The notes under the pieces were generated by a model. The model saw only the letters and a program-made list of their open reading frames with translations, had not been told where the DNA came from and ran no database searches. A stretch of 54,282 nucleotides of DNA, from the IMG/VR virus record IMGVR_UViG_3300009705_000019, positions 1 through 54,282 of that record. One strand, given 5' to 3'. Below are positions 15,584 through 54,006 of this stretch, piece after piece (positions within the stretch are counted from its first letter, which is position 1; each line of letters begins with the position of its first letter). The position numbers and the translations under genes were made by a program. This stretch comes from a virus.

Positions 15584-15820
15584 ATGAGCGCATTTGAAAA
15601 AACATGGGATTTGATGAAAGCAGGGGTCAAACGCCTCAATACCGATACGAACGTTCCTATGCCCTGCCCTGAATGTAGGGGTCCGATGGAACATCAAGAT
15701 GGTTATGTTGGTTCAAGTGGCCGTTTTGTCGAACCAGCGTATATGTGCATGGACCCAAAAACAGGTTATTGCGAAGCAAAAAGGCATGATGTGAAAAGTT
15801 CATTGAAGAAGGTGGAATGA
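15584..15820 (+). CDS. Small Zn-ribbon protein with N-terminal F-x3-W-x3-K tag
   Basis: A 78-residue protein that starts MSAFEKTWDLMKAG, a clear example of the recurring tag (F4, W8, K12). It then carries a zinc-ribbon-like pair, CPEC near residue 27 and two further Cys around 53-61 (MCMDPKTGYC). The ATG is one base after the TGA of the giant tail gene, with a GGTGA motif upstream. No enzymatic motif is present. It is probably a small virion or late regulatory protein; the tag suggests a shared destination with other late proteins. A gene this small would be doubtful alone, but the tag, the Cys pattern and tight packing support it. Confidence 0.8.
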   Translation: MSAFEKTWDLMKAGVKRLNTDTNVPMPCPECRGPMEHQDGYVGSSGRFVEPAYMCMDPKTGYCEAKRHDVKSSLKKVE

Positions 15821-26474: not shown

Positions 26475-27521
26475 TTAGTTCCCCTCCGCTTTATCCCTCA
26501 TTTCATGAGGCATCATATGGCGTTCATATTTAGGGCAGAATCCCTTGACAGCGCACCAGGGCTGACAGAAATAACGTTCCGCCCCTACTGGTTTTGTCGC
26601 AAACATTTTGCCGTTAAAATCTCCTTTGTATCGAAGATGTGCAGATACAAGGGCTTTGAGATCGGTGAGCATATCAGCGACAACACCTGCCTTGACAGGT
26701 TCAATAAATCGGTATATTTCATTTGGTTTTCCTTCTATGCCCTTTGTATGATCCCATCCCCAATAAGAGATATTGACTCCGCCAAGTTCTAACTGAGAGG
26801 ATTTTCTAAGCATATACACATAAAACGCCATCTCCTTTGCCATGCTATCATATTTCATTTTCTTGTCTTTCCATAGACCAGTTTTCAATTCATGAACATG
26901 ATAATCTCCGTTATCATCCATAAACAATCTATCAATGAATCCATTCAAATGAACCTGAACCTTTGTTCCGTTGATGTCGAGTTCGACCAAAGCATTAACG
27001 CCCAGTTCATTTCCAACTGGCTTGAAAGAATCTGGGTTTGAATCCATGAAGCGTTTTGCCTCCGCATCCATCAGTCGAGATAGATGTTCTTGTTCACCCA
27101 GACTGTAATCCTCTCCCGTTGGCGTAGCGTATTCATCATGCCAACCCTTGCTAATCTGTGCAAGAGGGATAAGAGATTCGAAATATCCTCTTACGCCATC
27201 AAATCCTTGTTCCTCTTTTATCTTCGTTGCATACTCGATATTTAGGACACCATCAAAACCTCGTTCTTCGAGATTACGATCCATAATATATTCATATGCG
27301 TCATGCACATTTGTTCCTCTAAGCATATTATCATTTTGAGGCTCTTTTACACCAAGAACATATTTTATGAAATACTGTTGCTCACAGGTTTGAAATGCGC
27401 CAAGCGAGGATTTGCTTACACGGAGTATCTTATCATCAGCCACGTTGGGATGCCATGCGTATGTTGAATACAACTCTCCGCTTATGGGAACTGGCTGTGG
27501 GGTTGGTGGCTTAATCTTCAT
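26475..27521 (-). CDS. PD-(D/E)XK nuclease with Fe-S cysteines (Cas4/RecB-like)
   Basis: A 348-residue protein. I start it at MKIKPPTPQP (27521), overlapping the upstream stop by 11 bases. C46 in LGAFQTCEQQY together with three C-terminal Cys in FCQPWCAVKGFC form the four-Cys iron-sulfur staple of Cas4/AddB-type nucleases. The active site follows: RGTNVHDAYEY, an Asp in NGFIDRLF, and HELKTG, then the Q/K-type helix KEMAFYVYML. It should be a single-strand exonuclease acting in end processing or recombination next to the Sak4-like ATPase. No cas1/cas2 or repeat array is present, so a CRISPR role is not suggested. Confidence 0.85.
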   Translation of the reverse strand: MKIKPPTPQPVPISGELYSTYAWHPNVADDKILRVSKSSLGAFQTCEQQYFIKYVLGVKEPQNDNMLRGTNVHDAYEYIMDRNLEERGFDGVLNIEYATKIKEEQGFDGVRGYFESLIPLAQISKGWHDEYATPTGEDYSLGEQEHLSRLMDAEAKRFMDSNPDSFKPVGNELGVNALVELDINGTKVQVHLNGFIDRLFMDDNGDYHVHELKTGLWKDKKMKYDSMAKEMAFYVYMLRKSSQLELGGVNISYWGWDHTKGIEGKPNEIYRFIEPVKAGVVADMLTDLKALVSAHLRYKGDFNGKMFATKPVGAERYFCQPWCAVKGFCPKYERHMMPHEMRDKAEGN

Positions 27522-28485
27522 CAATTGCCCCTCCCATAATGTCACAGGACATATCTTCATCTGGTTCAAGCAATACTTCATCAGCCGTTGGTTCATCATC
27601 AATGAATTTAGGGTGCATGAGTTCTGGCGCATCATCGGTGTTAAAATCCTCTAAGGACAATTGACCAACAGCAGTAAAAGCCACCGCTTTGCATGAATTA
27701 CAATCGAATTTGCCTTTCTTTGATGGTGGCTTATATCCTTGTTTGAAACGTTCTTCGAGTTCTTCCAACAAATAACCGTCTTTTCCAGGTTTCATTGAAC
27801 GTAGCCCATGATTGCTAACTTTGACACTTTCCTTATCCCAATGTTTAGCGATCTCCCAAAAATCAGGATAGCCCCGCCATAGATTCCACCATGAATCCAA
27901 TGGTTGTTTGATACAGTGGAAACACCCCAAACGATTAAAATTAACATACAGTTCATTTATCATCTCAAGGTCGTCAAGATATTTTACGCAATCAGCCTCA
28001 GTCCAGCCCCATTCAACAAGCGGGTATCTGTTCTTATCGTTGCGTGAATCCTCTTTTTTACCTGTTCTATGGGCTTCATCGGCAGCAATTCCAATATATG
28101 CAATATCCGCTTCTTTAGCCGCTTTCTGTAAAGGCTGAACCTTTGCTTCTCTCGCCCAATAGCAAGGATATGCTCGAAGAGGCGCACCCCGTTGTTTGCC
28201 CTTGCCCGCACCACGTTTCATAACGCCATAGAACCATTCATCCCACGTCTTAGGAGATCCGACCAACTCAAGTTTCAAATTCCTTTCAGGGTATTTTTCG
28301 TTGATATAAGCCATTACCTTTTCCATGTATTCGAGCAATTCAGGAAATTCAAATCCTGTATCGGCAAAGACAATTCGGGTGACTGGCAAATCGGGGTCGT
28401 TTAATTCCAATAAACGCAACAACATAGCGGTGCTATCCTTGCCGCCAGAAAAACAAACCATCCCGACCTTTTCACTCATGCTCAT
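27511..28485 (-). CDS. PAPS-reductase-family PP-loop protein (DndC-like)
   Basis: A 324-residue protein with the PP-loop SGGKDST at 13-19 and FADTGFEFPE, diagnostic of phosphoadenosine-phosphosulfate reductase/ATP-pyrophosphatase proteins. Cys pairs YPCYW, LGCFHC and DCNSC could hold an iron-sulfur cluster, as in DndC of the DNA phosphorothioation system. No dndD/E or dndA partner is visible, so DNA sulfur modification is possible but unproven; stand-alone members are common in phages with unknown roles. The ATG at 28485 overlaps the upstream TGA (TGATG); ATG 28479 is an alternative with better spacing to GAGG. It lies between nuclease and Zn-ribbon genes. Confidence 0.82.
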   Translation of the reverse strand: MSMSEKVGMVCFSGGKDSTAMLLRLLELNDPDLPVTRIVFADTGFEFPELLEYMEKVMAYINEKYPERNLKLELVGSPKTWDEWFYGVMKRGAGKGKQRGAPLRAYPCYWAREAKVQPLQKAAKEADIAYIGIAADEAHRTGKKEDSRNDKNRYPLVEWGWTEADCVKYLDDLEMINELYVNFNRLGCFHCIKQPLDSWWNLWRGYPDFWEIAKHWDKESVKVSNHGLRSMKPGKDGYLLEELEERFKQGYKPPSKKGKFDCNSCKAVAFTAVGQLSLEDFNTDDAPELMHPKFIDDEPTADEVLLEPDEDMSCDIMGGAIDED

Positions 28486-28754
28486 CAATCCTCGTATGTT
28501 TCCATCTTTACCGTATATGTTAATTTTGCCTCATCAAGATACTTCTTTATGAGCGTTATTGCCTCATCCCTTGTTATGTCAGGGCTATGTTCAAGTGACC
28601 AATCGAGTTCCCAATCATGGCCGTTTTTCCCAAATCCTGTATCGAAATTGATTTTGTGTTCATCATACAATTTACCTCGAATTCCAAAGATGGTTTCGGC
28701 TTCGCCGGTGATCGTGATTTTGTGACCCACTTTTAATTCAACATTCTTACTCAT
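28485..28754 (-). CDS. Small unknown protein upstream of PAPS-reductase-like gene
   Basis: An 89-residue protein starting MSKNVELKVGHKITITGE, chosen because GGAGGAAAAAGAAAG precedes ATG 28754; the longer form lacks a good site. It has a beta-rich N-terminal half (ITITGEAETIFGIRGKLYDEHKINFDTGF) and a helical C-terminus. Not recognised. Overlaps both neighbours, so it is cotranslated. Confidence 0.65.
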   Translation of the reverse strand: MSKNVELKVGHKITITGEAETIFGIRGKLYDEHKINFDTGFGKNGHDWELDWSLEHSPDITRDEAITLIKKYLDEAKLTYTVKMETYED

Positions 28755-39269: not shown

Positions 39270-39295
39270 GTATTCCCAATTAAACCCTCTCACAT
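39270..39295 (-). promoter_or_regulatory. TATA-type promoter, leaderless class
   Basis: On the - strand GAGAGGGTTTAATTGGGAAT. The TTTAATT core is about 27 bases from ATG 39254. It overlaps the 3' end of the chaperonin gene. Confidence 0.55.
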
Positions 39296-40921
39296 TTGAG
39301 GCATGGGTGGACCGGCAGGTGACGGGTTCATTCTAATTACATCATCAATGCGAAGAACCATAATCGCCGCTTCTGTTGCTGAGGTTAATGCTTGAAGATG
39401 AAGTGCTGTTGGTTCGACGATCCCCTGCTTTAGAGCATCATGAGGGTGCGCTTTTCCTTCTGGCTCAACATCAATAAAATACCGATAGTTTCCATCAGCA
39501 CTATTCTTGCACAAATCTAAAAGTTCATCCACAGGATCAAGACCTGCATTTTCAGCAATCGCTGATGGGATTTGTAATAGAGCGTCAGCGAAAGCATCCA
39601 CCGCCATTTGAACTCGCCCTTCGGGTCTGCAATGTTTCTTTAATGAATTATACAAGAATGCCTGAGTCGCACCACCACCCAACAAGATTCCATCATCGTT
39701 CTTCATCAACCACGCAACGCCCACAGCATCCTCTAATGCACGTTCAACCTCTTCGGCAACATGACTGGTTGCACCACAGGCTATTACCGTTTGAATTGGC
39801 GATGAGTCTTTTGTATTGGTGAGCATTACCAAATCAAAATCGAATCGGTCTGTGACCATGAATCCACATTTTCCTAAATCAAAATCATCAATTGGATTGC
39901 TTAGGCTCGAAACAATGTTTGCCCCTGAAATGCGACTTGCTGAATCGAGATCGGATTTCTTAACTGAATGAACGGCTGAAATATCATGCTTCTTGAGGTA
40001 ATGCAAAGCCAAATCATCAATTTTCTTTTGAGTTAATACAAGCGTTGCGCCAGATTGATGAATTAGTTCCACCATATCCCGTATTGCATCTTCTTCTTGG
40101 CGAAGGAATTCTTCAACCTGTAATGGATTGGTAATTTGAACCTGAGCATCCATGCTCGTTTTCTTTGGCTCAACGGCGCAATCGAGAAGGAGAACCTTAG
40201 CATCGGTATTGCTTCGTGACATTGTTTGACTTGCCAAATCACGCTCAATGACAATACCAGGTATAGAATGAGTATCTTCTTCATTTGTTCCGCTTGCTGA
40301 TATGAAATGAACATCGTCTATTGTATTGACATTCCCCACCACTTTTTGAGCCAAGAGAGCCAATTTATGCTGAATTCCTTCGGCGGATTTGCCAGTTAGA
40401 GAACTGAATGCTGCATGATATGATATGTCCTTCACCATGACTTTTCCACTACCTTCTTCATCCTCCATTTCCTTACGATTATTCACAGCGAGTTCTTGAA
40501 GTTCGGTCAAACAAAAATCCTTAGCGATTCGGAATCCTTTACAAATTGTAGTAGGATGGATGCCTTTATCCAGCAAACGTTCCGCTTCACCGAGAAGTGA
40601 ACCAGATAATACCACCGCACTTGTAGTGCCGTCAAAACAACGGCTTTCCTGAGTCTTAGCCACTTCAACAATCATCTTAGCGGCTGGATGTTCGATTCCG
40701 ATCTCTCGGAGAATTGATACTCCATCGTTTGTGATGATTACATTTCCCGTAGGGTCGATCAACATCTTATCCATACCTAATGGTCCAAGAGTTGATTTGA
40801 TTGCATCGCCAACCGCTTTGGCGGCTTGGATATTATTTCTTTGGGCGGCTGAACCATTTGTTTGTTCAGTTCCCTTTTGCATGATATACACAGGCTGTTG
40901 CCCGTTTGATGCTGGCTGCAT
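39290..40921 (-). CDS. ths: Group II chaperonin (thermosome subunit)
   Basis: A full-length 543-residue chaperonin. Visible motifs are GPLGMDKML (46-54), [29 protein letters not shown] (63-91) and [14 protein letters not shown] (97-110), with the ATP-hydrolysis Asp kept; the usual VGDGTT is CFDGTT, so the Gly before Asp is Phe. The end is [10 protein letters not shown] rather than the GGM-rich cellular tail. It should fold proteins in a two-ring ATP-driven cage, probably virion components. Virus-coded group II chaperonins are reported for Marine Group II viruses. GGTGGGATT precedes the ATG and a promoter-like element stands 28 bases upstream. Acquisition from a host is likely. Confidence 0.97.
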
Positions 40922-49861: not shown

Positions 49862-49967
49862 ATTGACCATGAAGGCATCACTGAAAGCCTGTGGACTGGG
49901 TGTAGCCACCCACCGATGCCACGCAGCACCCCGTTTATCGCCTTTCAGGGGTATGTTTGGAGAATAC

Positions 49968-49980
49968 TTTTTTTTTTTTT
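49968..49980 (+). other. 13-base T tract
   Basis: A run of 13 T, the longest homopolymer I saw. In archaea T tracts can terminate transcription, here of any rightward transcript from the origin region; it could also serve as an easily melted or bent segment. Length may be affected by sequencing. Confidence 0.6.
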
Positions 49981-50059
49981 GCTGAGGCCGCCATTGACGC
50001 TGGATGCTACAAGGAAAAAATCTGGAAAAAAGTTATTGGTTATGTTAAGTAGTTGGGAT

Positions 50060-50072
50060 GGGTTTATTTCAA
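50060..50072 (+). promoter_or_regulatory. Candidate TATA box for the right-hand late cluster
   Basis: GGGTTTATTTCAA has a TTTATTT core about 27 bases before ATG 50093, the leaderless spacing. No ribosome binding site precedes that ATG. It lacks the TGAGnC part of the leftward elements, so it may be a different (late) class. Confidence 0.4.
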
Positions 50073-50092
50073 GTTGCCTACTGAGCCAATTT

Positions 50093-51844
50093 ATGGCGAG
50101 TCATGACTTTAACAAATCATGGGAATCCATAACAAAAATACATCCTCTTGTCGAAAATGATGATGGAACGGTTCAATGTGGCAAATGTGCAACAGGGTAT
50201 GAAGAAAGTCATGAGGCTGAGGAATGCTGTGAAACCTGTTGGAAGTGTGGCCTAAGAGGTCATAATATGCCAGATGAAGCGGAGGACTGTTGCCCTTGCT
50301 CATGTGGTGGTGAACATGGTTTTTGCGAAACCAGTGATGTTTCGGATGAAATAGAACAGGAGATTTTTGAAAGCCTTGCTGCTGATGGTGCGGCACGTGC
50401 TAAAATGAAAGCAATGTATGGTAAGCCTCCAAAGGGAATGGAAGATTATTTTCGTAGGTCATGGGATTCGATAACTAAGATGCCCTTTGTTCGAGATAGT
50501 GTCCGTGAAATGACACCAGAAGATGTGAAACGCTATAATTTTACAGAAGGTTATGAGACACGTGAGCCTAAAGATGATCGGTTTATGCCGAACAAACGTA
50601 TGATTGGAGATTATGCAGATGAGGAATCTGGCAAAACTTTGCCGATTGTCATAAACAAACCATTCAAAGCCACAGAAGAGGCGAGGGAGAAGGATCGGAA
50701 CTCCAGAAGGATTTTTGGAAGTGGTTTGAGAGATGGAAGCATGACTCAGGGTTTTATCCCTATGAATCATTTGGGAATAAAAACTCATAAAGAAAAGTTC
50801 TTTGGTGGGCAACAACAAGACCCTGCCGCAGTTCTCGATAATGGTCGCCTTCATCAAGTCTGGACTCCTAAGAAAATGCGTAGGCAAGGAATTGCGTCGA
50901 GCATTTTGGATGCTATGGTCGAGGAAGGTCGAAAGAGTGGCTACCGTAGCGGCTGGCTTCCATCGGCTAAAGACGAAGATGGGCGGCAACTGGCTAATGT
51001 AAGAACAGATGAAAAGGGTCAGGAAACTCATCATACCAGACCCTGGGTTGATGCAGAAACAGGCGTTCCTTATTGGCATCGGAGTGATTTTGGGATTCAG
51101 CCAACGGGCGGTCAAGCAACAAAAGATTATCTCGGGTTGATGGCGAGTCGAGGTCTTTTCCCAAATCAAATTAAAGGGCGAGGCAATGATGTTGGCGAAG
51201 GCCGTGAAAGTCGAGATCCGAATAACGTGTGGGCTGATGAAGGCTCTCAAGAAGGTGCAAAATACTTTGAAGCCTATGATTGGGGCAAAGGGGGATCTGA
51301 TTCCGAAGAAGGCAAACGAGGTAATACTTGGGGCTTTGATGAAGAACAACCGTTCTTGCGGCCAACTCTTTCAACGATTATGGAACGTGCTAAATCGACG
51401 GGAAACCATAAAGCAAAAACTGAAAAGTTGATGAGAGAAGCGAGTGACCGTTGCCCTCAAGATGGTGAAGCCGATCCAGTCACAGGAAAAGTTCACCCTT
51501 ATATTGAGGACTCCGATATTAAAGAAGAAGATGGTTGCGACTGTTGGGATGATTGGCGAGAAGCGAGAGGAAAGTATTTTGCTGAATTCCCTGAATTAGA
51601 TTGGATAAATGAAAGATACCCTGAAGATCCAAACGACCCTGATGATAAATATGCAGATGATACAGCACCGCCAGAAGGTTTCCATTTGGCTGAAAAGGTA
51701 AAGCGTTTCAATGAAATGATTGAGCAAAGAGATTTAATCCCTGCTGAACCTGGTGTTTGGAATGATGAGAAAGATGATTTCGAGCATGGCGGGAAAACAA
51801 CACAGGAATGGTCCGACCATGAACGTGATTTGAGAGGCGACTGA
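50093..51844 (+). CDS. GNAT-like acetyltransferase fusion with two tags and Cys-rich N-terminus
   Basis: A 583-residue protein from ATG 50093 (MASHDFNKSWESITK); an in-frame ATG at 50042 would add 17 residues. Tag 1 is F6-W10-K15. A Cys-rich zone follows (CGKC ... CCETCWKCG ... CCPCSCGG, about 29-78), then tag 2, DYFRRSWDSITKMPF (F120, W124, K129), as if a second tagged protein were fused on. Around 270-290 VWTPKKMRRQGIASSILDAMVEEGRKSG matches the acetyl-CoA-binding RxxGxA motif of GNAT enzymes. The rest is hydrophilic and Asp/Glu-rich. Likely a virion-borne acetyltransferase; substrate unknown. Opens the right-hand late cluster. Confidence 0.78.
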   Translation: MASHDFNKSWESITKIHPLVENDDGTVQCGKCATGYEESHEAEECCETCWKCGLRGHNMPDEAEDCCPCSCGGEHGFCETSDVSDEIEQEIFESLAADGAARAKMKAMYGKPPKGMEDYFRRSWDSITKMPFVRDSVREMTPEDVKRYNFTEGYETREPKDDRFMPNKRMIGDYADEESGKTLPIVINKPFKATEEAREKDRNSRRIFGSGLRDGSMTQGFIPMNHLGIKTHKEKFFGGQQQDPAAVLDNGRLHQVWTPKKMRRQGIASSILDAMVEEGRKSGYRSGWLPSAKDEDGRQLANVRTDEKGQETHHTRPWVDAETGVPYWHRSDFGIQPTGGQATKDYLGLMASRGLFPNQIKGRGNDVGEGRESRDPNNVWADEGSQEGAKYFEAYDWGKGGSDSEEGKRGNTWGFDEEQPFLRPTLSTIMERAKSTGNHKAKTEKLMREASDRCPQDGEADPVTGKVHPYIEDSDIKEEDGCDCWDDWREARGKYFAEFPELDWINERYPEDPNDPDDKYADDTAPPEGFHLAEKVKRFNEMIEQRDLIPAEPGVWNDEKDDFEHGGKTTQEWSDHERDLRGD

Positions 51845-51846
51845 TT

Positions 51847-52110
51847 ATGTTTCAATGGTTCTATCGTTTCTGCATCCGATCAATGGAAAAAACATATGTT
51901 TGGATGGATTCTCGAATGATACGGCCAGTCGATGATGAATTACTGGGCGTTAAGATAGATTCCGATTTTGGTTCTATGAGCCGTCACCAACTATGCCGTC
52001 ATGCTGAATCTCGATTTAATTTACAAGTTGATGATTTATGGAATCTTCAATCGACTTCCAAGATACGCCTTGCGTGTCAATTAGCCCGAAACATGAGGGA
52101 TAAGCAATGA
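51847..52110 (+). CDS. Small unknown basic protein (87 aa)
   Basis: Starts MFQWFYRFCIRSMEKTYVWM, an aromatic and basic N-terminus, followed by SMSRHQLCRHAESRFNLQVDDLWNLQSTSKIRLACQLARNM, a helical segment. No tag. ATG two bases after the preceding TGA; its end overlaps the next ATG (ATGA). Function unknown. Confidence 0.65.
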   Translation: MFQWFYRFCIRSMEKTYVWMDSRMIRPVDDELLGVKIDSDFGSMSRHQLCRHAESRFNLQVDDLWNLQSTSKIRLACQLARNMRDKQ

Positions 52111-52664
52111 AGGCGTTTGAAGAAGTATGGAGTTTGATTAAGATGCCAGCGAAAGGATGGGAATGCCCTGAATGTAAAATGCCTATGATGGTGCAAGTGG
52201 ATGAACAGTCGCTTCAATGTATGAATTGTCACGCAGTAGCACTTACTCCGGCAAGAAAAGCCCGAAATTCGTTTGATGCTGATTCAGCAGCCCATCAGGG
52301 AATTGAAGATATGCTCGATGAACATAAGGAATCGGGGGTTCAACGGGTTGCTAAATTGGGTCAAGCACTTACTGACTTGGGAACTAATGTGGTCGAACAT
52401 CCTCGAAAGAAAGTTGATTACAACCCCCGAGATCAATTTCACCCATTAGAACGTATGCTAAACGAATTGGGCTTTACATCCATAGGCCAGTTGATGCAAG
52501 ACTATTTACGACTCAAAGCACAGGAAAACCACCAAGATTTGAGAGGAATGGGCTTACCTGATGAAGCCCAACAAATGGAACAGGAATGGGTTGAAAGTAT
52601 TATGAATCGACAGAAACCAATGGCTGACCCTTTTATCTCACAGGATAGAGGGGAGGCGTGGTGA
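52107..52664 (+). CDS. Tagged Zn-ribbon protein (185 aa)
   Basis: Starts MKAFEEVWSLIKMPAKGW, the clearest form of the tag (F4, W8, K12, then MP). A zinc ribbon follows directly: CPEC at 20-23 and CMNC near 38-41. The remaining ~140 residues are helical and hydrophilic, with HPLERMLNELGFTSIGQLMQDYLRL. GAGGGAT precedes the ATG. Same layout, tag then ribbon, as the gene at 15584, so the two may be paralogues. Role proposed: virion cargo that contacts nucleic acid or host protein. Confidence 0.8.
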   Translation: MKAFEEVWSLIKMPAKGWECPECKMPMMVQVDEQSLQCMNCHAVALTPARKARNSFDADSAAHQGIEDMLDEHKESGVQRVAKLGQALTDLGTNVVEHPRKKVDYNPRDQFHPLERMLNELGFTSIGQLMQDYLRLKAQENHQDLRGMGLPDEAQQMEQEWVESIMNRQKPMADPFISQDRGEAW

Positions 52665-53533
52665 TGATTCGGATATTTGAAGTTGGACCACGTGATGGGC
52701 TACAAAACCTGCCGCACGTTCCATCCACCGATGATAAAATCCAACTCATCAAACATCTCCGTGATGCTGGCTTGACTCAAATTGAGATTGCATCATTTGT
52801 TCATCCGAAGGCCGTTCCGAATATGGCTGATGCTGAACAGGTGTGCAAAGCCTTTGATGATAAGACGGGCTTCTCAGTTCTTATTCCCAACAAAAGAGGA
52901 TATGAACGTGCAGTTAATTCTGGGATGGAACAATTCAATATATTCTTCTCACCGATGGATTCTTTTAATGTAGCCAATTATGGTTTGAACTTAAAACAAA
53001 TCATCGCCAATTACGCTGTTGCATTGCATGGCGTTCCTAAAGAATCAGTTCGAGTATATATCTCGGAATCGTTTGAGGCAGGTAGGGAGGAACTTGCATC
53101 GGCAATCCAAGTTGGTTTGAAGTTCGGTGATCGTATTGTTTTATGCGATACGAAGGGAACGGCAAAACCATTTGACATTTCATGGTGCGTTAGTTTGGCG
53201 CAGTTATTTACCAACAATTTATCGCTGCATCTTCATCATGGTCAGCACCTTATGGAAAATGTATCGACTGGTTATGCCAGTGGGATTCGAGAATTTGATT
53301 CCAGCATTGGCGGTCTTGGTGGCTGTCCGTTTGTTGAGAGTTCTGGGGCGAACCTTGCTACTGAGGATTTAGTCAAGTGGTGCAAGAAGCGAGGCATTGA
53401 ATGTGGCGTGACTCTTCGCCAACTCAAGGCGGCACGAAAGTTGGCACACAAAATAAAGAATCCAACGTTGAAGGTTGCCGCTAAAAACAAATACAATGAA
53501 ACCAAAAGCAAATTGAAGGCGGTGTGGTTTTGA
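52664..53533 (+). CDS. HMG-CoA lyase family enzyme (DRE-TIM metallolyase)
   Basis: A 289-residue protein from ATG 52664 (TGATG coupling). Family hallmarks: EVGPRDGLQN at 6-15 (catalytic Arg and metal-binding Asp), QIEIASFVHPKAVPNMAD, CDTKGTA, the metal HxH in LSLHLHHGQ, and GGLGGCPFVESSGANLATEDLV with the catalytic Cys and Asn kept. HMG-CoA lyase splits HMG-CoA to acetyl-CoA and acetoacetate. The usual HxHDTYG is HLHHGQH, so the residues just after the metal site differ and specificity may have shifted. Untagged, but placed among tagged acetyltransferases. In archaea HMG-CoA feeds isoprenoid lipid synthesis, so it may redirect that pool; this is inference. Confidence 0.85.
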   Translation: MIRIFEVGPRDGLQNLPHVPSTDDKIQLIKHLRDAGLTQIEIASFVHPKAVPNMADAEQVCKAFDDKTGFSVLIPNKRGYERAVNSGMEQFNIFFSPMDSFNVANYGLNLKQIIANYAVALHGVPKESVRVYISESFEAGREELASAIQVGLKFGDRIVLCDTKGTAKPFDISWCVSLAQLFTNNLSLHLHHGQHLMENVSTGYASGIREFDSSIGGLGGCPFVESSGANLATEDLVKWCKKRGIECGVTLRQLKAARKLAHKIKNPTLKVAAKNKYNETKSKLKAVWF

Positions 53534-54006
53534 CAGCATTCGATCAAGCGTGGTCTTTGTTGAAGATGCCCATTGTTCCAGGTTCTTTCAAGCAAGACAG
53601 GCCATTAGCAGATGTTCCGATTAGATATTCGGCAAAATTTCAAGACCCTAAAACGACGGAAGAGATGGATATGTGGGCTGAGTTTGACCTCGACCTCGAA
53701 TATGATCAAAATTGTGAAGTTAAAGGTGGAATAAACCATCCTAATGATTCAATGTATAATCTGGGAGATCGTGCAATAAGTCATATTGGTCAAGAATATC
53801 CGAACAAAGATGATTTTTATGCACACGGAACGGGTGTTGATGAAGAATACCGGCGAAGAGGGTATGCGACGGCGTTGTATGATATGTTGGCTCGCATACT
53901 GCACGAACAGGGAGAATACAGATTAACTCCTTCGAATGGTCTTAACGAAATGTCAGGTCCACTTTGGGGCGATAAGAAAACATGGCCTGTGAGGGATGAT
54001 CTATGA
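53530..54006 (+). CDS. Tagged GNAT acetyltransferase
   Basis: A 158-residue protein. I choose TTG 53530, which gives MTAFDQAWSLLKMP, nearly identical to the start of the next tagged gene, with GGTG spaced correctly upstream; GTG 53524 would add two residues. After the tag comes a GNAT fold: beta-rich centre and GVDEEYRRRGYATALYDMLARI, the acetyl-CoA pyrophosphate-binding RxxGxA motif near residues 103-124. It should transfer acetyl groups to an amine of an unknown protein or small molecule. It overlaps the lyase gene by four bases, which places acetyl-CoA production and use side by side. Confidence 0.82.
   Translation: MTAFDQAWSLLKMPIVPGSFKQDRPLADVPIRYSAKFQDPKTTEEMDMWAEFDLDLEYDQNCEVKGGINHPNDSMYNLGDRAISHIGQEYPNKDDFYAHGTGVDEEYRRRGYATALYDMLARILHEQGEYRLTPSNGLNEMSGPLWGDKKTWPVRDDL

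Follow-up and report, generated by a model that had tools for sequence, protein, structure and literature searches.

A divergent HMG-CoA lyase-like gene carried by a virus that very probably infects archaea

A viral contig from IMG/VR (record IMGVR_UViG_3300009705_000019; its whole 54,282 bases are referred to here as the window) carries a homologue of hydroxymethylglutaryl-CoA (HMG-CoA) lyase that belongs to a divergent viral subfamily of this known enzyme family. The gene appears genuine and conserved, and its product is probably active. The best explanation, towards which we lean with slightly more confidence than doubt, is a member of the HMG-CoA lyase family that serves as a stand-alone auxiliary metabolic enzyme and would most likely cleave (S)-HMG-CoA in the infected archaeon. 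How the uncultured viruses of marine archaea affect host metabolism is largely a matter of guesswork; an enzyme that is conserved and open to testing, placed at the branch point of archaeal lipid synthesis and amino-acid catabolism, offers one concrete handle, and, as one soluble protein, it can be assayed without virus or host.

The preliminary description of this DNA had given the interval 52664–54006 for its observation on the lyase. The homologue is real at 52664–53533, but the interval spans two genes, the second being a GNAT-family acetyltransferase; the overlap between the two, which had also been described, amounts to 10 bases, with both genes on the + strand. The ATG start of the lyase (MIRIFEVGPRDGLQN methionine) is the same as in its relatives, and the list of open reading frames (ORFs) also contains an alternative GTG start 6 bases upstream, at 52658. 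The neighbour matches the GNAT domain less strongly, yet genuinely (Pfam PF00583, 1.1e-5, above its cut-off). The features of this region are as follows.

52107–52664, + strand: tagged ORF (MKAFEEVWSLIKMP...) just upstream of the lyase, zinc-ribbon-like by its CxxC pairs
52664–53533, + strand: HMG-CoA lyase-like gene, 289 aa, identified by Pfam, NCBIfam and PDB matches, an AlphaFold2 model and Foldseek
52691–52705, + strand: RDGLQ motif; R10, D11 and Q14 correspond to human R41, D42 and Q45 and occur in 50/50 viral and 40/40 cellular sequences
53228–53239, + strand: HLHH; metal-binding H189 and H191 (human H233 and H235), then the virus-type His that replaces Asp/Asn
53312–53329, + strand: GLGGCP loop with the catalytic cysteine C221 (human C266), invariant
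53351–53368, + strand: NLATED; metal ligand N230 (human N275; invariant, 81/81), E234 and D235
53524–54006, + strand: tagged GNAT-family acetyltransferase (MVLTAFDQAWSLLKMP...), a neighbour and not a conserved partner

Family assignment and active site

The homology to HMG-CoA lyases proposed in the preliminary description is borne out by matches far above chance. The protein matches Pfam HMGL-like (PF00682) at 1.8e-21, with 77.1 bits against a gathering score of 29 bits, and the NCBIfam hydroxymethylglutaryl-CoA lyase family at 2.3e-58, the next family following at 1.6e-9; in a sequence search of the PDB, solved HMG-CoA lyases come first (E 3e-40). An AlphaFold2 model built from a 61-row alignment (41 viral and 20 bacterial rows) has a mean pLDDT of 94 and a pTM of 0.89. 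When this model was searched with Foldseek, ranks 1–14 were all HMG-CoA lyases (6e-25 to 5e-21) and the next DRE-TIM enzymes appeared from 3e-15 on. Structure prediction, which had been suggested as a check, thus places HMG-CoA lyases above all other DRE-TIM enzymes as matches to the predicted DRE-TIM barrel, and these have the closest fold among solved structures. The best NCBIfam score for an isopropylmalate or homocitrate synthase was 37.4 bits, where 484.75 are required, and an identity as either synthase is ruled out by profile, fold and tree.

Residues were compared in a joint alignment of 50 viral sequences, 40 cellular enzymes and the human sequence, whose numbering is used below. The equivalents of R41, D42, Q45, E72, N138, D204, T205, H233, H235, C266 and N275 are kept in 50/50 viral sequences, and the same eleven residues are constant over 81 viral sequences, apart from incomplete ends. 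In the human enzyme, R41, D42, E72, D204, H233, H235, C266 and N275 serve in catalysis or bind the metal. None of the 50 viral sequences lacks a metal ligand (D42, H233, H235 and N275), and the catalytic R41, E72, D204 and C266 are present in the viral sequences as well. RDGLQN, HLH, GGLGGCP and NLATED, the motifs listed in the preliminary description as key residues, are all found in the window, with the E and D of NLATED kept here and variable across the virus clade. It is very improbable that catalysis has been lost and that the protein has a binding or structural role: the unusual second-shell residues described below would fit such a loss, but a non-enzyme would have no need of the catalytic and metal residues, which persist in 81 viral sequences with identities as low as about 40%.

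The sequence after HxH is changed, as had been observed earlier, and the change is typical of the virus clade. All 40 cellular rows compared have D/N and T in HxH[D/N]T, where the window reads HLHHG (HLHHGQH); the viral residue after HxH is mostly His and otherwise mainly Glu, and the next Thr is lost in nearly all. Between C266 and N275, cellular A-[S/T]-G becomes viral S-G-[A/S/G] (A272S, S/T273G and mostly G274A), and A130P is a further second-shell change in viral members. Six residues of a GCPYEG-type loop are missing in the window's subgroup and kept in more distant viral members. The window protein shares with known HMG-CoA lyases the fold, the full length, RDGxQ, the metal ligands and the catalytic Cys in GGLGGCP, but it is only 28–34% identical to them, lacks HxH[D/N]T, has a recast Cys–Asn loop and has lost the GCPYEG loop together with its subgroup. 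Its score against NCBIfam NF004283 also falls below the curated cut-off (197.7 against 246 bits); cellular controls score 323–483 bits and viral relatives 156–251 bits.

Because the post-HxH signature is absent and the curated score is not reached, we file the protein as HMG-CoA lyase-like and not as a proven HMG-CoA lyase. The substrate could differ, since HxH[D/N]T is absent and the C266–N275 loop is systematically altered. A virus-specific C–C lyase with the same chemistry, acting on another 3-hydroxy-3-methyl acyl-CoA or a related branched-chain or isoprenoid-derived thioester, is a minority possibility that we take seriously: the first shell is intact while the second shell has changed as a block (the residues after HxH, the Cys266–Asn275 loop, A130P and, in the window's subgroup, the loss of GCPYEG), and the score lies under the HMG-CoA lyase cut-off. 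On the other hand, no other DRE-TIM family scores near, and one divergent viral member (L163) passes that same cut-off, just, with 250.7 bits. Our best reading of the substrate is HMG-CoA or a close acyl-CoA. A virus-only clade with its first shell intact and its second shell altered is in either case useful for understanding DRE-TIM specificity.

Relatives in other viruses

The gene of the window is not unique. A search in other virus contigs had been suggested; when viral contigs were scanned with a mixed alignment, 116 relatives came up, of which 80 were kept, at identities between 80% and about 40%. A scan of genome contigs with four viral sequences as the query found no relative. In a careful maximum-likelihood tree (96 rows, LG+C20, isopropylmalate synthase outgroup), the 50 viral sequences form one clade with support of 100/100 inside the HMG-CoA lyases; viral rows had been picked by likeness to the window, and the cellular rows drawn from the genome scan were, among the matches listed, bacterial. 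The phylogeny that had been proposed as a check therefore groups the viral clade with HMG-CoA lyases and apart from isopropylmalate synthases, within this sampling of cellular enzymes without archaeal ones. Its stem is long, at about 1.1 changes per site in a quick tree. The virus-only branch, which looks old and widespread, forms one viral clade within this sampling, and the gene is under purifying selection, with dN/dS of 0.06–0.18 among close relatives. As regards recent capture from a host, the best cellular relative among the matches listed is 39% identical, against about 40–80% among viruses; the matches listed in the genome scan are bacterial, with no archaeal HMG-CoA lyase among them.

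The preliminary description knew of no virus-encoded HMG-CoA lyase, which does not hold: such genes are on record in magroviruses (PMC10160649) and in Klosneuvirus KNV1 (BFVD). Xu et al. 2023 (PMC10160649) list hydroxymethylglutaryl-CoA lyase (HMGCL) among the magrovirus auxiliary metabolic genes, on annotation alone, and call such genes sporadic; they assign it to leucine degradation, the only published reading that we found. What the window has in common with these viruses of marine archaea is the annotation of an HMG-CoA lyase. The paper also lists CysH, an ERCC4 nuclease and Laminin_G_3, all of which have counterparts in the window (that of Laminin_G_3 being weak); the parts consulted hold no account of the virus clade or the altered motifs. 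Nor did the literature searched, which missed several papers on such viruses, contain a description of the virus-specific clade and its motifs. The Klosneuvirus KNV1 HMGL-like protein (A0A1V0SKU2) likewise has a virus-encoded HMGL fold (Foldseek against BFVD, 9e-21), but it is 27% identical and belongs to a giant virus of eukaryotes. PHROGs contains no family for the lyase.

Three GenBank matches labelled as phage were set aside. Two of them (CAKLQH020000001 and CAKLQF020000001; 'Acinetobacter phage MD-2021a', >300 kb) were rejected as viral lyases on account of chromosome-like bacterial neighbours; in the one examined in detail, chromosome-like metabolic genes flank the HMG-CoA lyase, and both look like bacterial contigs mislabelled as phage. 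The third is an unverified, unannotated faecal contig.

Gene neighbourhood and possible role in the host cell

The genes that adjoin the lyase vary from virus to virus; many are short ORFs that bear an F-x-x-A-W-x-x-L-K tag at the N-terminus. That the lyase is functionally paired with the GNAT enzyme, as had been proposed, is not supported, because the downstream gene differs between viruses. HMG-CoA reductase and thiolase were absent from 32 large contigs, with positive controls in the expected genomes, and a metabolic operon is rejected on this ground. Since the neighbours change and neither of these genes accompanies it, the lyase is therefore a stand-alone enzyme that must use a host metabolite.

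From the sequence we infer catalysis, HMG-CoA as the substrate and a physiological purpose, along the following lines. The gene would yield, in the infected archaeal cell, a divalent-metal-dependent DRE-TIM C–C lyase that would most likely split (S)-HMG-CoA into acetyl-CoA and acetoacetate. A host pool that serves mevalonate and isoprenoid lipids and is fed by leucine breakdown would in this way be turned into acetyl-CoA during infection.

If HMG-CoA is indeed cleaved, two purposes can be considered, fuel from leucine and interference with mevalonate, which sequence alone cannot separate. In the former, the lyase would finish leucine catabolism and thereby let the amino acids of host protein be turned into acetyl-CoA during infection; this is the assignment published for magroviruses (PMC10160649), and we consider it a reasonable possibility that still falls short of even chances, as no other leucine-pathway gene was seen near the lyase and host enzymes would still have to activate the acetoacetate. 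In the latter, which was the idea of the preliminary description, the enzyme would be a weapon that drains HMG-CoA ahead of HMG-CoA reductase and stops the supply of isoprenoid lipids. It is compatible with the presence of HMG-CoA reductase in 4/4 archaeal control genomes, with a virus that brings no partner genes and with the position of the gene among effector-like tagged genes. However, there is no sign of limiting HMG-CoA or of a gain for the virus, the lyase lacks its neighbours' tag, and the sole published reading that we found (PMC10160649) is leucine degradation; we regard such a weapon as unlikely. A more sweeping proposal, that an ancient virus-only subfamily, near-core in a large marine archaeal virus group, has remodelled its pocket, acts on HMG-CoA or a neighbouring isoprenoid or branched acyl-CoA and shuts off archaeal membrane-lipid synthesis, appears doubtful to us.

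The tag is an observation in its own right. The one at the N-terminus of the GNAT enzyme is found again in numerous ORFs, both of this virus and of its relatives, and the motif stands at 39 N-termini in four contigs, against 1.3 expected. In the form TAFDxAWxLLKMP it heads dozens of unrelated ORFs, for example at 15584, 16949, 52107 and 53524 in the window and in clusters in relatives (L002, L003, L004 and L016–L017). The tagged ORFs include DNA methyltransferases (D12 and C5) and GNATs, and others resemble, by eye, ADP-ribosyltransferases or HExxH metalloproteases. The tag resembles a signal for targeting a set of effectors or packaging them into the virion, comparable to T4 Alt or P1 DarB. 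The lyase itself does not carry it, and tag-directed packaging of the lyase with the virion was rejected for this reason. A 642-aa ORF of the window (49916–51844, + strand) has two internal tag-like SW[ED]SITK segments and a weak GNAT match, and a related contig has a 1151-aa version (L002, 528–3983).

The virus and its host

One further gene of the window bears on the host.

39290–40921, − strand: archaeal thermosome, NCBIfam thermosome_alpha, 488.9 bits (cut-off 450)

The host is very probably an archaeon, because the thermosome exceeds NCBI's cut-off, in line with the archaeal virus assumed in the preliminary description, and because the window also carries a Hef/XPF-type nuclease and a weak match to the primase small subunit (PriS). 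Among its relatives, the longer ones encode a terminase large subunit, together with genes that appear protease- and capsid-like by position and sequence look only, and we regard the virus as a tailed virus of archaea. The window also contains a PAPS-reductase-like gene (27511–28488, − strand; phrog_424, 3e-39), an auxiliary type also reported for magroviruses (PMC10160649).

Among contigs of at least 85 kb that were found through terminase and not through the lyase, 3/4 carry the lyase gene (G070, G071 and G081, but not G079), which suggests, on a small sample of 4 contigs, that the gene is common in this virus group. PolB is absent from the window and from the 8 relatives nearest to it, contigs that may be fragments, and in this the window's own group, as assembled, differs from the magroviruses; PolB is present in 29/50 more distant lyase-bearing contigs, as it is in the magroviruses of Poseidoniales. 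In several lyase-bearing contigs (G030, G036, G038, G039, G045, G051 and G055) PolB lies in two or three pieces or has in-frame stops, a pattern that hints at split genes, inserted elements or frame errors.
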